This document shows, piece after piece, positions 7,219 through 58,101 of a DNA stretch of 64,000 bases. A program made the translations under genes and the position numbers. Position 1 is the first letter of the stretch, and every line of letters starts with the position of its first letter. The stretch lies in contig JABIVD010000058.1 in assembly GCA_018667335.1 (NCBI GenBank), forward strand, positions 1 to 64,000, read 5' to 3'. This DNA comes from Rhodospirillaceae bacterium (GTDB lineage Bacteria; Pseudomonadota; Alphaproteobacteria; UBA6615). The notes below the pieces were generated by a model, which had not been told where the DNA came from, made no database searches, and was given only the letters and a program-made list of their open reading frames with translations.

Positions 7219-8613
7219 ATGACGAACAAGACCCGCACCGAAAGCGACACGATGGGCGAAGTGGCTGTCCCGGCCGACAAATACTGGGGCGCCCAGACTC
7301 AGCGCAGCATCGAGAATTTTCCGATCGGCGACGATCGCATGCCGACCGCGCTGGTACGCGCGCTCGGTATCCAGAAGCAAGCAGCTGCCAAGGCCAACCT
7401 GGCACTCGGGCAACTTGAGCCGGAGGTCGCAAACGCCGTGATCGAAGCCGCGCAGGAAGTCATCGATGGAAAATTCGATGACAACTTCCCGCTGGTGGTC
7501 TGGCAAACAGGCTCGGGCACCCAGTCGAACATGAACGCCAACGAGGTCATCGCGAACCGTGCCAACGAGATTCTCGGCGGCAAGCCAGGGGACAAGTCCC
7601 CGGTCCACCCAAACGATCATGTGAACCGCAGCCAGTCGTCAAACGACACCTTTCCCGCCGCCATGCACATCGCCGCGGCGCTGGAGTTCCAGGACCGGCT
7701 GATTCCGGGCCTCACGCATCTGAAGGATGCGCTCGAAGCCAAGTCGAAGGAATTCGAGGACATCATCAAGATCGGTCGCACCCACACCCAGGACGCGACG
7801 CCCCTGACCCTCGGCCAGGAATTCTCCGGCTACGCGGCGCAGATGGAGGGTGTGATCGCCGGCATCGAACGGGCGACACCCGATCTTCTGCAGCTGGCCC
7901 AGGGCGGCACGGCCGTCGGCACCGGGCTCAACACACCGATCGGTTTTGCCGAACGTTTTGCCGAGGAGGTCGCCGGCATCACCGGGAAACCGTTCGAGAC
8001 GATGGCGAACAAGTTTGCAGGCCTGGCGGCACATGACGCGATGGTTGCCGCATCCGGCGCGCTGAATGTCGGTGCAGTGGCCGCCATGAAGATCGCCAAC
8101 GACATTCGTTTCCTCGGCTCCGGGCCGCGCAGTGGCATCGGCGAATTGAGCCTGCCGGCAAACGAGCCGGGTTCATCGATCATGCCGGGCAAGATCAATC
8201 CGACTCAGTGCGAGGCGCTGACGATGGTATCGGCGGAGATCATGGGCAACCATGTCGCGGTCACGGTCGCGGGCAGCAACGGCCATTTCGAGCTGAACGT
8301 GTTCAAGCCGGTGATTATCTTTAACGTGCTCCGCTCGGCCCGGTTGCTCGGCGATGCCTGCCGCAGCTTTACCGATCGCTGCGTGACCGGCGTCGAGGCG
8401 AACCGCGATCGGATCGCTGAGTTGATGGCCCAGTCCCTGATGCTGGTGACCGCGCTCAATCCGCATATTGGGTACGATAATGCCGCAAAGGTCGCGAAAA
8501 AGGCGTTTACCGACGGTAGTACCCTAAAAGAGGCCGCAATTGACTTGGGCCTGCTCACGGCCGAGCAGTATGATGCGTGGGTCAAACCGGAGAACATGAT
8601 TAAACCATCATGA
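7219..8613 (+). CDS. fumC: Class II fumarate hydratase
   Basis: 464 residues from the ATG at 7219, with CGGAGGAA just upstream; a GTG codon directly before it (7216) is the only alternative. Catalyses reversible hydration of fumarate to malate in the TCA cycle. The fumarase/aspartase superfamily signature [13 protein letters not shown] lies near residue 317, and [13 protein letters not shown] and [16 protein letters not shown] are in their usual places. Length matches the oxygen-stable homotetrameric class. Its stop overlaps the start of the next small gene (ATGA). Confidence 0.97.
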
Positions 8614-8849
8614 TTAGCAATGTCGTCGATACTCTGCCGCGTCAGTCCGCGAACAAGAAGCGATCCGTCGTGGTCGCCGGGCACCGCACAAGCGTGTCCC
8701 TTGAGAATGTATTCTGGGATCACCTGCGCAAGGTCGCGAAGGCCCGGCGCATGTCGGTCAATGAACTGGTGACGGAAATTGACCGCGACCGCGACGGCAG
8801 TCTGTCGAGTGCCATCCGTGTTTTCGTCCTGCACGACCTGCGCGACTAG
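8610..8849 (+). CDS. Ribbon-helix-helix domain protein
   Basis: 79 residues, overlapping the fumC stop by 4 bases (ATGA), so probably translated by coupling from the fumC message. The core [20 protein letters not shown] plus [14 protein letters not shown] matches the RHH_4 class of ribbon-helix-helix proteins that is common in alphaproteobacteria: a short beta strand for DNA contact and two helices for dimerisation. The target is unknown; control of the fumC operon or of a distant gene is possible but not shown. Confidence 0.8.
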
Positions 8850-8900
8850 CGCGGCACCTGGCACACTGACCGGCCGTCACCGGCACCGCCTCTGAACCTA

Positions 8901-48797: not shown

Positions 48798-51850
<3,053 letters not shown>

Positions 51851-51876: not shown

Positions 51877-53004
51877 CTAAGCCTTCGCCGCCTCATAGTC
51901 TGCCATGAAGTTCGGCGCCAGCTGCCGCAGGCGATCATCGTCCACACGACCCGAGCGGGTCATGTAGCTGTAGCCGAATTCCTGCGGTGTCAGCTGCATG
52001 TGCGCGGCGAAATCCTCATACCAACGCGCGCTCTTGGTCGCGGCGGCGACGATCTTCTCGACGATGGGCCGCCGTTCGGCCTCGTAACGCGTCAGTGCGG
52101 CGCGGATATCGCCGGGTTCGGCCTCGAGCGCCCCAACGAGCGCAATCACATCCTCCATCGCCAGGCGGGTACCCGACCCGATGGAGAAATGCGCCGTATG
52201 AAGCGCATCGCCGACCAGCACCATGTTCAGATGGGACCAGCGGTCGCTCCACAATTGCGGGAAGTTGCGCCAGCTTGAATTGTTTGAGATCAGCGGCTTG
52301 CCCCGCAGGGTGTCCGCGAACAGTTCCGAGCACAACACACGCGAAGCTTCGTCGCTCATCGTGGCGAAACCCGCCCGTTCCCAGGTCTCGCGTTCACACT
52401 CCACCAGGAATGTGCTCATCTCCGGCGTATAGCGGTAGTGGTGGGCGTTGACGGGGCCGTACTCGGTCTCGATGAAGGTCTGGGTCAGCGAGTTAAAAGG
52501 CGTCTCCACCCCGTACCAGGCGAATTTGTTGGGCAGATAGGACAGGGACGTCTGGAAGTCGCCCTCGTAGCTCCGGCGCACGATCGAGTTGATCCCGTCG
52601 GCGGCGATGATGAGATCCGCCTCGGGCAGATCATCAACGCTCCGTAGCACAGTCTCGAAGTGCAGTTCGGCACCCACCGCGAGCGCGCGTTCCTGCATCA
52701 ACTGCAGGAGTTTCAGGCGGCCGATCGAGGAAAACCCGACCCCGTCGATCGTGACGGTCTCGCCGCGATGGATGAGCGTCATGTCCTGCCACGTCTCCAT
52801 GGCGGGCGTGATCAGATCGTGGGTTTCGGGATCGTCCCCACGCAAAAACTCCAGCGCCCGGTCCGAGAACACCACGCCGAAACCGAACGTGGCATCCGCC
52901 GGATTTTGCTCGTAGACGTGCACCTGCGCGTCGGGATGGCGCTTCTTCCAAAGGGTCGCAAAGTAGAGCCCGGCAGGCCCCCCGCCAATAATGGCAATCC
53001 GCAT
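51877..53004 (-). CDS. FAD-dependent monooxygenase of the aryl-CoA hydroxylase type
   Basis: 375 residues. N-terminal FAD loop AIIGGGPAGLYFA, then FGFGVVFSD, and GDALHTAHFSIGSGTRLAMED near residue 270; the last part contains SARWYEDF. These match the monooxygenase half of anthraniloyl-CoA monooxygenase and salicylyl-CoA 5-hydroxylase rather than the phenol or ubiquinone hydroxylases. The old-yellow-enzyme half that anthraniloyl-CoA monooxygenase carries is absent. The gene follows the BKACE-like gene by 28 bases on the same strand, so both probably act on one CoA-linked or keto-acid substrate. The exact substrate is unknown. Confidence 0.75.
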   Translation of the reverse strand: MRIAIIGGGPAGLYFATLWKKRHPDAQVHVYEQNPADATFGFGVVFSDRALEFLRGDDPETHDLITPAMETWQDMTLIHRGETVTIDGVGFSSIGRLKLLQLMQERALAVGAELHFETVLRSVDDLPEADLIIAADGINSIVRRSYEGDFQTSLSYLPNKFAWYGVETPFNSLTQTFIETEYGPVNAHHYRYTPEMSTFLVECERETWERAGFATMSDEASRVLCSELFADTLRGKPLISNNSSWRNFPQLWSDRWSHLNMVLVGDALHTAHFSIGSGTRLAMEDVIALVGALEAEPGDIRAALTRYEAERRPIVEKIVAAATKSARWYEDFAAHMQLTPQEFGYSYMTRSGRVDDDRLRQLAPNFMADYEAAKA

Positions 53005-53032
53005 ATCAAATAATCCCCGCGGTGCCCCGCGA

Positions 53033-53926
53033 CTACGCTGCCAGCGGCTTCAGCCCCATAATCTCGCGGGCTTCCTCAGGTGTCGCCGGCTCCATGCCCA
53101 ATTCGCGGATGATGCGAACGATCCGCTCGACCAGCTGCACGTTGTTCGCCAGCACGCCGCGCTCGTAATACAGGTTGTCTTCGAGGCCGACGCGGACGTG
53201 GCCGCCGAGCAGGAGCGACAGCAGCGCGGCATTGAGCTGCGACGGGCCGATGGCACTGACGTTGAAGTTCGCGCCCTCGGGGATCAGATCGACCATCGCC
53301 TGAAGGATCTTGGGCGAATATGGCATCGCGCCCTGGAAGCCGCGATCCGCGCCGAGCACGAAATTGATGAAATAGGGAGGCTCATCGAGGCCCGCCTTGA
53401 GCAGGCTCATCACGTCCTGCAGCAGATGGGTCGGGCTGAACACCTCCCATTCGGGCTTGATGCCCTTGTCTTGCATCTTCGTGGCAAGCTCGCGGCAACG
53501 CTCGGGCGACGTGTTCATGATGATCTCGCGGCCTTCGAATGTCGCGACGATCGTCGTCGGATCGAGGGTGCACATCTCAGCCCCGCCCTCCATGCCCTTG
53601 AGGCGCTCTTCCCAGGACAGTTCGAGGAACCCGTCCGTCGATTCCTTGATCATGTCGCCGTTGATACCACCGCCCGTGGAGTTGTTCAGGATGATGTCGC
53701 ACTTGTCGCGAATGCGTTCGTTGATGTCCCGGTAGATCGCGGGATTGCAGGTCGCCTGGTCATCGGGCCGGCGGGCATGCACCGCAACAACGGACGCGCC
53801 GGCTTCGTAGCAACGATAGACGTCATCCGCGATCTCCTGCGGCTGAGTCGGGATATTGGGATTCTGTTCCTTGCTCGCCATTCCGCCCGTCGGCGCAATG
53901 GTCACAATCACTTTTCTTTCGGCCAT
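53033..53926 (-). CDS. BKACE-family beta-keto acid cleavage protein, atypical zinc site
   Basis: 297 residues, TIM-barrel fold of the 3-keto-5-aminohexanoate cleavage (DUF849) family. Family enzymes condense a beta-keto acid with acetyl-CoA and split it into a CoA ester and acetoacetate. [14 protein letters not shown]-type FVLGADRG and [15 protein letters not shown] (Arg, zinc Glu, Asp) are kept. The usual HxH zinc pair is AVH here (in [12 protein letters not shown]), so the first His is Ala, and the N-terminal catalytic-region Glu of TGAE is Met (TGGM). The function is thus uncertain. It is the first gene of a pair with the flavin monooxygenase. Confidence 0.8.
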
Positions 53927-54000: not shown

Positions 54001-55797
54001 TCAATTCGAATCTAGCGGCCGCGTTACCTCCGCAAGCCAAGCCAGCGCATCGCCATCGAGCATCGGACCGATCTCTGCGGCGACCCGCGCATGATAGGCG
54101 TTCATCCAGGCGCGCTCGTCAGCGGTCAACAAACTCGAGGTGATCAGGCTGCGATCTATGGGTGCCAGTGTCAGCGTTTCGAAACCGAGCATCGGGCGCT
54201 CGCCGCCGGAAATGTCGCCCGGCTGGGTCACGGCCAGCAGATTCTCAATGCGAATCCCGAAGGCTCCCTCTTTGTAGTAACCGGGCTCGTTCGAAACGAT
54301 CATTCCCGGCTGCAGGGGTATCGACGACCCGGTCTTCGCGATGCGCTGCGGCCCTTCATGAACGCCGAGATAACTCCCCACCCCATGGCCCGTACCATGA
54401 TCGAAGTCGAGCCCCACCTGCCACAGCGCCTGCCGGGCATAACTGTCGAGCTGCGCACCGCTGGTCCCGGCCGGGAAACGCGCAGTCGCGATGGCGATGT
54501 GCCCCTTGAGAACCCGGGTAAACCGGTCACGCATCTCATCGGACGGCGTGCCGACAGCAACCGTCCGCGTCACGTCGGTCGTCCCGTCGAGATACTGAGC
54601 GCCTGAATCCACCAGATAGAGATCTCCCGGCGCCAAAGCCCGGTTGGTCTCTGGCGTGACGCGATAATGCACAATCGCCCCATTCGGCCCGGCGCCCGAG
54701 ATCGTGCCGAAGCTCAGATCGCGGAAATGTTCGCCGGTTTCCCGGAATTCCAGCAATCTTGCCGCGGCGGACAACTCATCGACGTCGCCCGACGGGGCCA
54801 CTTCGGACAGCCAATGCAAGAACCGCGAGAGCGCGGCCCCGTCGCGCAAATGCGCCGCACGTGTCCCGGCGAGCTCCGTCTCGTTCTTGATGGCCTTGGA
54901 AAGGGTCACCGGGTCGTTGCCGCGCAGGACCACGGCACCGGCCCGTGTCAGACGGTCAAATATCCACGCCGCGGCGCTGTCCGGGGCCACCAGAACCCGC
55001 CGGTCCTTGAGCCCATCCAACGCCCCGGCAAAGGCCTCGGGATCACGCATCTCGACTTCGCTGCCGAGATGCGCGATCAGCGCATCGGATCGTTTCTCGG
55101 GTGCGACAAACCAATCAACCGTTCCATCGGCATCCAGGATCGCAAAACTAAGGGCCAGCGGCGTGTGAGCTACATCGCCGCCACGCACATTGAGCAGCCA
55201 GGCAATGGAATCCGGCTGTGTCAGCACCGCAGCGTCCAGCTCCTCCTGCGCCAGCGCCTCACCAAGCGACCTGCGCTTGTGGGCGCTGCTGCGACCGGCA
55301 AACTGCTCATCATGCGGCACAGCGGGTGCAGACGGCGGCGGCGGCTGGTCGTCCCACACTGCATCCACCGGGTTTGTCTCGACCAAGATGAGAGCCACAC
55401 CGGCGGCCTCGGCTGAATTGCGCAAACGTTGCACGCCGGCCTGCGTGTGCAGCCACGGGTCGACACCGAGACGCATGCCCTGACGAAGAACCCCACCAAG
55501 CCAGTCGGCCACCGGCGCTTCGATCAGATGATGGAACTCGTACAACGCCCCGTCGACCTGGTCGCGCACCTGAAGCGTGTAGCGACCATCAACAAACATC
55601 GCCGCCCGGTCCGCCAACACCACCGCCGTACCCGCGGAGCCCGTAAACCCGGTCAGCCAGGACAGACGCTCGGCATCCGGCGGCAGAAACTCGTTCTGGT
55701 GGGCGTCGGAATGGGGCACCACGAACCCGTCGAGGCCCTGTTCCGCAATTTTGTCGCGGAGGGCCGACAGGCGTTGGCTCGGAGATTTGGCGTTCAT
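54001..55797 (-). CDS. Aminopeptidase P family protein (Xaa-Pro aminopeptidase)
   Basis: 598 residues from the ATG at 55797; an upstream TTG-type start would add 12 unusual residues. This is the long, eukaryote-like three-domain form: two creatinase N-domains (about 10-300) and an M24 pita-bread domain with metal ligands in YLVDSGAQYLDGTTDVTRT, GTGHGVGSYLGVHEGP and ENLL. It removes N-terminal residues before proline. It is 74 bases upstream of the BKACE-like gene on the same strand, but a shared role is not evident; divergent from the cupin gene. Confidence 0.92.
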   Translation of the reverse strand: MNAKSPSQRLSALRDKIAEQGLDGFVVPHSDAHQNEFLPPDAERLSWLTGFTGSAGTAVVLADRAAMFVDGRYTLQVRDQVDGALYEFHHLIEAPVADWLGGVLRQGMRLGVDPWLHTQAGVQRLRNSAEAAGVALILVETNPVDAVWDDQPPPPSAPAVPHDEQFAGRSSAHKRRSLGEALAQEELDAAVLTQPDSIAWLLNVRGGDVAHTPLALSFAILDADGTVDWFVAPEKRSDALIAHLGSEVEMRDPEAFAGALDGLKDRRVLVAPDSAAAWIFDRLTRAGAVVLRGNDPVTLSKAIKNETELAGTRAAHLRDGAALSRFLHWLSEVAPSGDVDELSAAARLLEFRETGEHFRDLSFGTISGAGPNGAIVHYRVTPETNRALAPGDLYLVDSGAQYLDGTTDVTRTVAVGTPSDEMRDRFTRVLKGHIAIATARFPAGTSGAQLDSYARQALWQVGLDFDHGTGHGVGSYLGVHEGPQRIAKTGSSIPLQPGMIVSNEPGYYKEGAFGIRIENLLAVTQPGDISGGERPMLGFETLTLAPIDRSLITSSLLTADERAWMNAYHARVAAEIGPMLDGDALAWLAEVTRPLDSN

Positions 55798-55901
55798 GGC
55801 CGCGAAGCTACGCGAGGCCCCACCGGAAGACAATTCCGTGCTGCCGCGCTATCCTCGCATCGGAAAACACGACCGGAAAACAAACAGAGGGACGAGACAT
55901 C

Positions 55902-56456
55902 ATGACACGCGTTGATCCGCCGCCAGGACCCAGCATCAGCATCGCCGACATGGAGGCATGCACCGCCCGCTTCAACGAGATCAAGGGCAGCGGCCTTTGC
56001 TTCATGGACCAGCGTATTCCCGGCCATGAACGCGAGATGATCAACCTGTGCGGCCTCGGCGTGACCGAGAATGAGGCTGACCCGGATCTGGCACCGAAAC
56101 TCGGCAACGCCCATGGCTTTGCCCACGGCTTTGCCAAATGCGATCCCGGCTGTGGCGCGGCGCTGCACTGGCACGAGACCGAAGAGGTCTTCATGCCGCT
56201 CGACGGGAAATGGTCGATATACTGGCGCGATGGCGAGGAAGAGCGCGAGGTTTTCCTTGAGGCCGGCGATACCGTCTCCGTCCCAATCGGCATCTACCGC
56301 GGCTTCAAGAACGTGTCCGACAAGCCGGCCACACTGCAATTCATCGTCGGCGGGCCGGACACCGGCAAGGTGCACTGGCATCCGTCGGTGATCGATGCCG
56401 CCCGCAAGACCGGCCTGGAGGTCGATGACAACGGCCTTCTGGTCGAGATCGAATAG
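55902..56456 (+). CDS. Cupin-domain protein
   Basis: 184 residues with one cupin fold (about 60-150): ALHWHETEEVFMPLDGKWSI supplies two His and a Glu as metal ligands, and the second motif is GDTVSVPIGIYRGFKNV, where a His is replaced by Tyr. No enzyme class can be assigned; such proteins bind or isomerise small acids, or act as oxygenases. It is 13 bases upstream of the GMC oxidoreductase and surely co-transcribed with it. Confidence 0.82.
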   Translation: MTRVDPPPGPSISIADMEACTARFNEIKGSGLCFMDQRIPGHEREMINLCGLGVTENEADPDLAPKLGNAHGFAHGFAKCDPGCGAALHWHETEEVFMPLDGKWSIYWRDGEEEREVFLEAGDTVSVPIGIYRGFKNVSDKPATLQFIVGGPDTGKVHWHPSVIDAARKTGLEVDDNGLLVEIE

Positions 56457-56469
56457 CCTGGAAGGCCCC

Positions 56470-58101
56470 ATGCAAGATCTAGGTTCCTTCGACTATGTGA
56501 TTGTTGGCGCGGGTTCGGCCGGCTGCGTCCTTGCCAACCGCCTGTCCGCCGACCCGGATGTATCCGTCCTGCTCCTCGAGGCGGGCGGCAAGGACAATTA
56601 CTTCTGGATCCACATACCCGTCGGCTACCTGTACTGCATGAACAATCCGCGCACGGACTGGATGTTCAGCACCGAGGCAGAGGAAGGCCTGAACGGACGC
56701 GCGCTGGCCTATCCGCGCGGTCGCGTGCTGGGCGGCTGTTCGTCGATCAACGGCATGATCTACATGCGCGGCCAGTCCCGCGACTATGACCAGTGGCGTC
56801 AGCTCGGCAACACCGGCTGGGGCTGGGATGATGTGCTGCCCTACTTCATGAAGTCGGAAGACCAGGCGGCGGTGCCAACCGACGAAGTGCATGAGAGCGG
56901 CGGCGAGTGGCGGGTCGAGAACCAGCGCCTGTCCTGGGAGGTGCTCGACGCGTTCCAGGAGGCTGCCGCGCAGGTGGGCATTCCCAAGACCAATGACTTC
57001 AACCGGGGCGACAATCACGGCTGCGGCTACTTCCATGTCAACCAGCGCACGGGCATGCGCTGGAGCACGTCGCGCGCCTTCCTCAAGCCCGCGCGCAACC
57101 GCAGCAATCTGACTGTCCTGACCCATGCCGAGGTAGACAAGATTCAGCTCGAAGGGCGCAAGGTCATGGGCCTGGCGCTGCGCCTCAAGGGTGCACCCGC
57201 ATCGGTACAGATCGACGGTGAATTGATCCTGTCGGCCGGCTCCATCGGCAGCCCGCAGATCCTCGAACTATCCGGCATCGGCAATCCCGATGTTCTGGGT
57301 GCCCACGGAATCGAGACGGTGCATGCGCTGCCTGGGGTCGGCGAGAATTTGCAGGACCATCTGCAGGTCCGCTGCGCCTACAAGGTTACGGGCGTCAAAA
57401 CCCTGAACGAGCGGGCGAACAAACTCCTCGGAAAGGCGGGTATCGCGCTGGAGTATCTGTTCAAGCGCTCGGGTCCCATGTCGATGGCACCGTCCCAGCT
57501 CGGCGCGTTCGCCAAATCGGACCCGTCGCTCGAATTCCCGAACCTGCAATATCATGTGCAGCCGCTCACCCTTGAGAAGTTCGGCGAGCCGCTGCACCCC
57601 TTCCCGGCCTTCACCGCGAGCGTCTGCAACCTGCGGCCCGAGAGCCGCGGTTCGGTCCACATCAAGAGCGGCAAGGCCGGCGACAAGCCGTCGATCCGGC
57701 CCAACTATCTCTCGACGGAAGCCGACCGGCGGGTCGCGGTCGAGGCAATCCGGCTCACCCGCAACATCGTGGCCCAGTCACCCATGGCAAAGTACGCCCC
57801 CGAAGAGTTCAAACCCGGCCCCGAGATCGCAAGCGACGCCGAACTGGCCAAAGCGGCCGGCGACATCGCGACCACCATCTTCCACCCGGTCGGGACCGCC
57901 AAGATGGGTCAAGATCCCGGGTCGGTCGTCGATGACCGGCTTCGTGTGCACGGCATTGAAGGACTTCGGGTCGTCGATGCCTCGGTCATGCCGACCATCA
58001 CCAGCGGCAACACGAATTCGCCCGTGATCATGATCGCGGAAAAGGCGGCGGATATGATCCGTGAAGATCGGCGCAGCGCGGCCGGCGCGCGTGCGGCCTA
58101 G
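56470..58101 (+). CDS. GMC-family FAD oxidoreductase (choline dehydrogenase-like)
   Basis: 543 residues from the ATG at 56470, four bases after GGAAGG. FAD motif [17 protein letters not shown] (about 11-27), GMC signature 1 in [15 protein letters not shown], signature 2 in [15 protein letters not shown], and the C-terminal catalytic His in [10 protein letters not shown] plus Asn in [12 protein letters not shown]. The group oxidises primary alcohols such as choline, glycol ethers or aromatic alcohols; substrate not predictable. Cytoplasmic (no signal peptide). Paired with the cupin gene. Confidence 0.92.

Follow-up and report, generated by a model that had tools for sequence, protein, structure and literature searches.

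The beta-keto-acid-cleaving enzymes (BKACEs) react a beta-keto acid with acetyl-CoA to yield an acyl-CoA and acetoacetate (PMC6365646; PMC11961710). Structures are available for Kce, the 3-keto-5-aminohexanoate cleavage enzyme (PDB 2y7d-2y7g), and for BKACE15 of Paracoccus denitrificans (PDB 8rio, 8rip, 9hnf), which binds zinc 1:1 and is active only after zinc is added back (PMC11961710). In Sphingobium SYK-6, VceA and its partner VceB carry vanilloylacetate via vanilloyl-CoA to vanillate (PMC11837543; PMC9618137), and hydroxyphenylethanones are carried on to hydroxyphenyl beta-ketopropionates by carboxylase, phosphatase and kinase genes, as in the Acv system of the same strain and the Hpe system of Rhodococcus rhodochrous GD02 (PMC13101465; PMC9618137). 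Beyond the CoA thioester, two kinds of ring oxidation are relevant here: the type enzyme SdgC hydroxylates salicylyl-CoA to gentisyl-CoA (PMC13215587), and the Box pathway (BoxB/BoxC) proceeds by benzoyl-CoA epoxidation.

The window analyzed here, a 64,000-nucleotide stretch of an alphaproteobacterial contig (JABIVD010000058.1), encodes a BKACE-family protein, P0001, whose gene is followed 28 bp downstream by that of a flavin monooxygenase, P0002 (Table 1), the open reading frames being just as the initial annotation had given them. P0001 scores 283 bits against the BKACE model PF05853 (former DUF849; curated cut-off 24.8) and thus falls within the superfamily, whereas its 256 bits against the Kce equivalog NF052387 lie below the cut-off of 382 and leave it outside Kce proper. 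Its predicted structure (pLDDT 90) is a standard BKACE TIM barrel that matches BKACE15 and Kce with Z scores of ~39 over 268-282 residues. With these two enzymes, to which it is 30-35% identical, it has in common the fold, a set of Ser, Thr, Glu, Arg, Glu and Asp residues and the second zinc His: in the alignment with Kce (PDB 2y7d), for which we presume the residue numbering and roles familiar for the family, Ser83, Thr120, Glu161, Arg245 and Asp250 correspond to Kce Ser82, Thr106, Glu143, Arg226 and Asp231. The difference lies in the metal strand, VVAVHARRP, where Ala48 stands at the position of Kce His46 and His50 at that of His48. The change from HxH to AxH, within a ten-residue motif that is as reported, and the retention of the zinc Glu (Glu249) with its neighboring Arg245 and Asp250 therefore stand as first described. 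That description had also made a point of a Met in place of the Glu of the N-terminal TGAE; the difference is real (P0001 has TGGM), but it was rejected as a meaningful sign and is not diagnostic, the position being variable across the whole family, with I, G, R, V, A, Y and more in other BKACEs.

Table 1. Coordinates in the window of the gene pair and of the zinc-site codons
Feature	Position	Strand	Detail
Single-domain flavin monooxygenase, salicylyl-CoA 5-hydroxylase type, P0002	51877..53004	-	375 aa; FAD_binding_3
Intergenic gap BKACE/monooxygenase, genes in the same direction	53005..53032	.	28 bp
AxH BKACE-family protein P0001	53033..53926	-	297 aa; PF05853 match, clade alignment and tree, model with BKACE fold
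Glu249 codon, kept zinc-ligand Glu (Kce Glu230)	53180..53182	-	clade alignment
Cys60 codon, clade-specific; candidate replacement ligand	53747..53749	-	31/31 clade members
Arg53 codon, clade-specific; mostly Asp in other BKACEs	53768..53770	-	31/31 clade members
His50 codon, kept zinc-ligand His (Kce His48)	53777..53779	-	sequence; invariant in clade alignment
Ala48 codon GCG, replaces first zinc-ligand His (Kce His46)	53783..53785	-	sequence and clade alignment

As judged from the alignment, Ala48 is neither chance nor a sequencing error, since Ala occupies this position in all 31 clade sequences, which come from independent genomes and plasmids, and in 11 more sphingomonad loci, while His occupies it in all 32 other BKACEs. 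The suggestion that AVHARRP might be the signature of a clade is thus borne out. Arg53, Cys60, Asn69, Gln28, Trp160, Asp171, Asn188 and Ser224 are likewise shared by all 31 members, and Asn82 by 30 of them; Arg53, Cys60, Asn82 and Trp160, along with aromatic rather than lysine-fermentation contexts, set the clade apart from Kce and BKACE15. In the tree, computed from an alignment that retained the motif column, a single branch separates the AxH proteins from all others (SH-aLRT 99; stem of 0.96 changes per column). On these sequence grounds, they constitute a genuine BKACE branch with wide conservation, ranging across Alpha-, Beta- and Gammaproteobacteria and one actinobacterium. Relatives at least 60% identical to P0001 are found in marine Alphaproteobacteria (85-98%), Rhizobiales, Pseudomonas, Thauera, Xenophilus, Comamonas and the actinobacterium Georgenia; plasmid-borne ones occur in Rhizorhabdus, Massilia, Paraburkholderia, Caballeronia, Variovorax, Sphingobium, Sphingomonas, Novosphingobium and Agrobacterium, and within the plasmid set identity drops from 60% straight to 41% with nothing between. 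The AxH form is rare: 3 of 385 genomes of the class carry one, as do 11 of 397 genomes of one family reached with a sphingomonad-type probe, and the four further BKACEs of the source genome are all HxH. Plasmid annotations name the AxH proteins 3-keto-5-aminohexanoate cleavage enzyme, i.e., a lysine-fermentation enzyme, a function that they very probably do not have.

Two of the three protein zinc ligands, His50 and Glu249, remain in the clade; the canonical triad of HxH plus Glu is broken in every member by the Ala at the first His. Substrate or water probably compensates for the missing ligand, or else one of the residues peculiar to the clade (Cys60, Arg53 or Asn82, for example), and a different metal geometry is possible. 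The clade can also be seen as having given up acetyl-CoA-dependent cleavage for another, zinc-free reaction of such beta-keto acids (e.g., hydrolysis or decarboxylation), as the substitution of the first zinc-ligand His in all members, the several clade-specific residues of the active-site strand and the long stem branch might suggest. This is improbable, given that Glu161, the proposed catalytic base, Arg245, Asp250, Ser83 and Thr120 are all kept and that the thioesterase and aroyl-CoA-oxygenase genes described below point to a CoA-ester product. The wholly new reaction that had initially been envisaged is less likely too, because the thioesterase, BoxB and salicylyl-CoA-hydroxylase-type neighbors all imply a CoA thioester as product.

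The monooxygenase P0002 is, from its similarities, salicylyl-CoA 5-hydroxylase-like. It resembles SdgC in its match to the bifunctional salicylyl-CoA 5-hydroxylase/oxidoreductase model NF006101, over the N-terminal half only and with 416 bits (cut-off 1078), VioD being the next-best model; it differs from SdgC in being single-domain and in adjoining a BKACE rather than a CoA ligase. It belongs to a group of single-domain proteins at 49-64% identity, from which the two-domain enzymes stand apart at about 37-47%. Gentisate-type breakdown genes do accompany its relatives: the loci of the closest plasmid ones, in Agrobacterium, Phaeobacter and Nitratireductor, hold an IclR regulator, a thioesterase, a benzoate-CoA ligase family gene, FAHD, a maleylacetoacetate isomerase gene and a cupin of the gentisate-dioxygenase kind (at one locus, L061, with 263 bits against the gentisate dioxygenase model, under the cut-off of 442), while of these neighbors the ligase alone remains beside the Rhizobium relative. 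At a further locus (L090:7679-8590, genome G388), the monooxygenase orthologue aligns only from residue 80, as a truncated gene or a faulty assembly would, and is adjoined by a 4HBT thioesterase gene.

The gene pair is not a peculiarity of the source genome, as it is conserved in its marine alphaproteobacterial lineage, where a 4HBT thioesterase gene comes next at three loci (L014, L015, L016). A universal pairing of the clade with the monooxygenase was, however, rejected: the pair is confined to this lineage, the one exception being a less tight cluster in Variovorax, and most clade members lie in other aromatic-catabolism contexts. In two close relatives (loci L012, L013), the order is boxC-boxB-BKACE, with boxC-boxB directly upstream of a BKACE (8001-8891) 93% identical to P0001; BoxC scores 903-913 bits (cut-off 712) and BoxB 870-879 bits (cut-off 499). 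The monooxygenase gene of these genomes has kept its old place next to the ligase and M24 peptidase genes and has no BKACE gene there; the same BKACE has moved between the two loci inside one marine lineage. On a Sphingobium yanoikuyae plasmid and in genome G778, the BKACE gene lies together with those for a biotin carboxylase, a biotin carrier, a HAD phosphatase and a 4HBT thioesterase. These are carboxylase and phosphatase genes of the Hpe and Acv kind; no kinase was identified at the two loci, and whereas the GD02 system ends with the ligase and hydrolase HpeEF, they have the BKACE and a thioesterase. The Variovorax cluster combines a gentisate dioxygenase (by annotation), FAHD, a thioesterase, the BKACE, a carnitine-dehydrogenase-like gene, an acyl-CoA dehydrogenase, an enoyl-CoA hydratase, a monooxygenase 53% identical to P0002 and an AMP ligase, and in Massilia the BKACE accompanies FAHD, a dehydrogenase of the carnitine-dehydrogenase-like type and a gentisate-dioxygenase-like cupin (269 bits, below cut-off). 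In Agrobacterium, a BKACE-thioesterase pair is close to aromatic ring-cleavage genes. On plasmid pSWIT02 of Rhizorhabdus wittichii RW1 (L033), the AxH BKACE gene comes after one that encodes part of a pyruvate-phosphate-dikinase-type domain, and it lies near oxalocrotonate decarboxylase, acetaldehyde dehydrogenase and several transposase genes.

Carnitine-dehydrogenase-like enzymes also stand beside or near the BKACE in Pseudomonas, Paraburkholderia and Comamonadaceae, sometimes with a thioesterase. A set of BKACE, dehydrogenase and thioesterase is known for carnitine, and such contexts would equally fit non-aromatic beta-keto acids. Accordingly, one may ask if the clade substrate is, for instance, a dehydrocarnitine-like or hydroxyacyl compound, with the dehydrogenase acting ahead of the BKACE and the thioesterase following it, and with the monooxygenase of the window lineage an incidental neighbor. 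Dehydrogenases of this family at eight loci (L022, L026-L029, L034, L036, L037) and the 4HBT thioesterases at several agree with this; yet it is unlikely overall, as these dehydrogenases score under the L-carnitine dehydrogenase cut-offs, and as boxC-boxB, aromatic carboxylase, gentisate-dioxygenase and salicylyl-CoA-hydroxylase-type neighbors recur in independent lineages.

The contexts taken together suggest that the clade makes CoA-activated aromatic acids, which would then be processed by an oxygenase, a benzoyl-CoA epoxidase or a thioesterase. An aroyl-CoA product would explain five of them—the window lineage, boxC-boxB, S. yanoikuyae/G778, Variovorax and Massilia—because it is the substrate of BoxB, of the salicylyl-CoA-hydroxylase-type enzyme and of thioesterases, and aroylacetate suggests itself as the precursor because it is the product of carboxylase-type operons. 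The reading that we favor, and hold to be reasonably probable, is thus that P0001 belongs to an aromatic-specialized BKACE branch that turns aroylacetate into aroyl-CoA, with hydroxylation by the monooxygenase following in this lineage; the substrate class, the reaction and the order of steps are all inferred from the genes. The BKACE would convert aroylacetate (3-aryl-3-oxopropanoate) and acetyl-CoA to aroyl-CoA and acetoacetate, activating the aromatic acid without a separate ligase; the monooxygenase would then hydroxylate the aroyl-CoA, and a 4HBT thioesterase would release an acid of gentisate type, whose ring could then be cleaved. VceA/VceB provide the same kind of reaction and thioesterase partner as proposed here; the window BKACE differs in being paired with a monooxygenase. 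In its most specific version, offered only tentatively, 2-hydroxybenzoylacetate would give salicylyl-CoA and then gentisyl-CoA. The retention of all catalytic residues of P0001 except the one His counts for an aroylacetate-cleaving function; the missing ligand, set beside the zinc dependence of BKACE15, counts against it, as does the lack, within the window, of any adjacent gene for ring cleavage, a ligase or a thioesterase.

The rest of the source genome, searched family by family, offers two possible fates for the ring. It encodes a gentisate 1,2-dioxygenase (552 bits; cut-off 442), accompanied at a distance of no more than about 7 kb by 4HBT thioesterase and FAHD genes, and a boxB (799 bits) with an adjoining boxC-like gene, which, in contrast to the boxC-boxB-BKACE loci, is on a different contig from the BKACE. 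Hydroxylation and box epoxidation would therefore both be available, and adjacency favors hydroxylation. The initial annotation had the steps the other way round, with the monooxygenase acting first and the BKACE-fold protein working on its product in an undescribed pathway. Gene proximity is what speaks for that order, which we regard as very unlikely: the family of P0002 is typed by a salicylyl-CoA 5-hydroxylase, and its closest plasmid relatives sit with CoA ligases; the substrates of BKACEs are free beta-keto acids and their products CoA esters (PMC6365646); and the BKACE-monooxygenase-thioesterase gene order of the marine loci fits the reverse. The BKACE probably comes first, because the relatives of the oxygenase act on aroyl-CoA thioesters, the very type of product that a BKACE makes.

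A more far-reaching proposition, plausible but on the doubtful side of even, is that a widespread BKACE branch cleaves aroylacetate with a rebuilt or metal-free active site (Ala for His, with the clade-specific Arg53 and Cys60) and feeds a ligase-free route of marine Alphaproteobacteria from aroylacetate via aroyl-CoA to CoA-dependent ring hydroxylation. If true, a single motif (AxHARRP plus Cys60) would mark BKACEs that connect the catabolism of arylpropanoids and aromatic ketones, including those derived from lignin, with aroyl-CoA ring oxidation without a CoA ligase. The clade may also serve as a natural experiment on the extent to which BKACE chemistry depends on the full zinc site.

Genome G541, which we take to be that of Sphingobium SYK-6, has four BKACEs, one AxH (63% identical to P0001) and three HxH. 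Should the AxH copy be VceA, the clade's reaction would already be known, leaving as new only the change in the metal site and the coupling to a monooxygenase; should VceA be an HxH copy, the AxH clade is uncharacterized. Whichever copy is VceA, the clade is a variant of the BKACE kind. The AxH gene of this genome (L132:8941-9903; G541:C1, about 2,674,533) lies beside a GST-like gene, with an HxH BKACE gene about 15 kb further on.

Around the pair in the window, an M24-family aminopeptidase-like gene (54001-55833) precedes the BKACE gene on the same strand, 74 bp upstream, and is retained here even in relatives whose BKACE is missing from this position. Upstream of it, genes for a cupin and a choline-dehydrogenase-like GMC oxidoreductase (55902-58101), divergent from the BKACE genes, are also kept in relatives. 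HpvY and HpvZ of lignin degraders are choline-dehydrogenase-like, and a link of the oxidoreductase to aromatic alcohol oxidation is therefore possible. All three genes were considered as pathway parts and not adopted, being conserved synteny that remains when the BKACE is absent. On the other side of the pair, an 865-aa open reading frame (49253-51850) overlaps the preceding transporter frame, with a DNA ligase start inside it that was placed by eye at a stretch of 12 residues.
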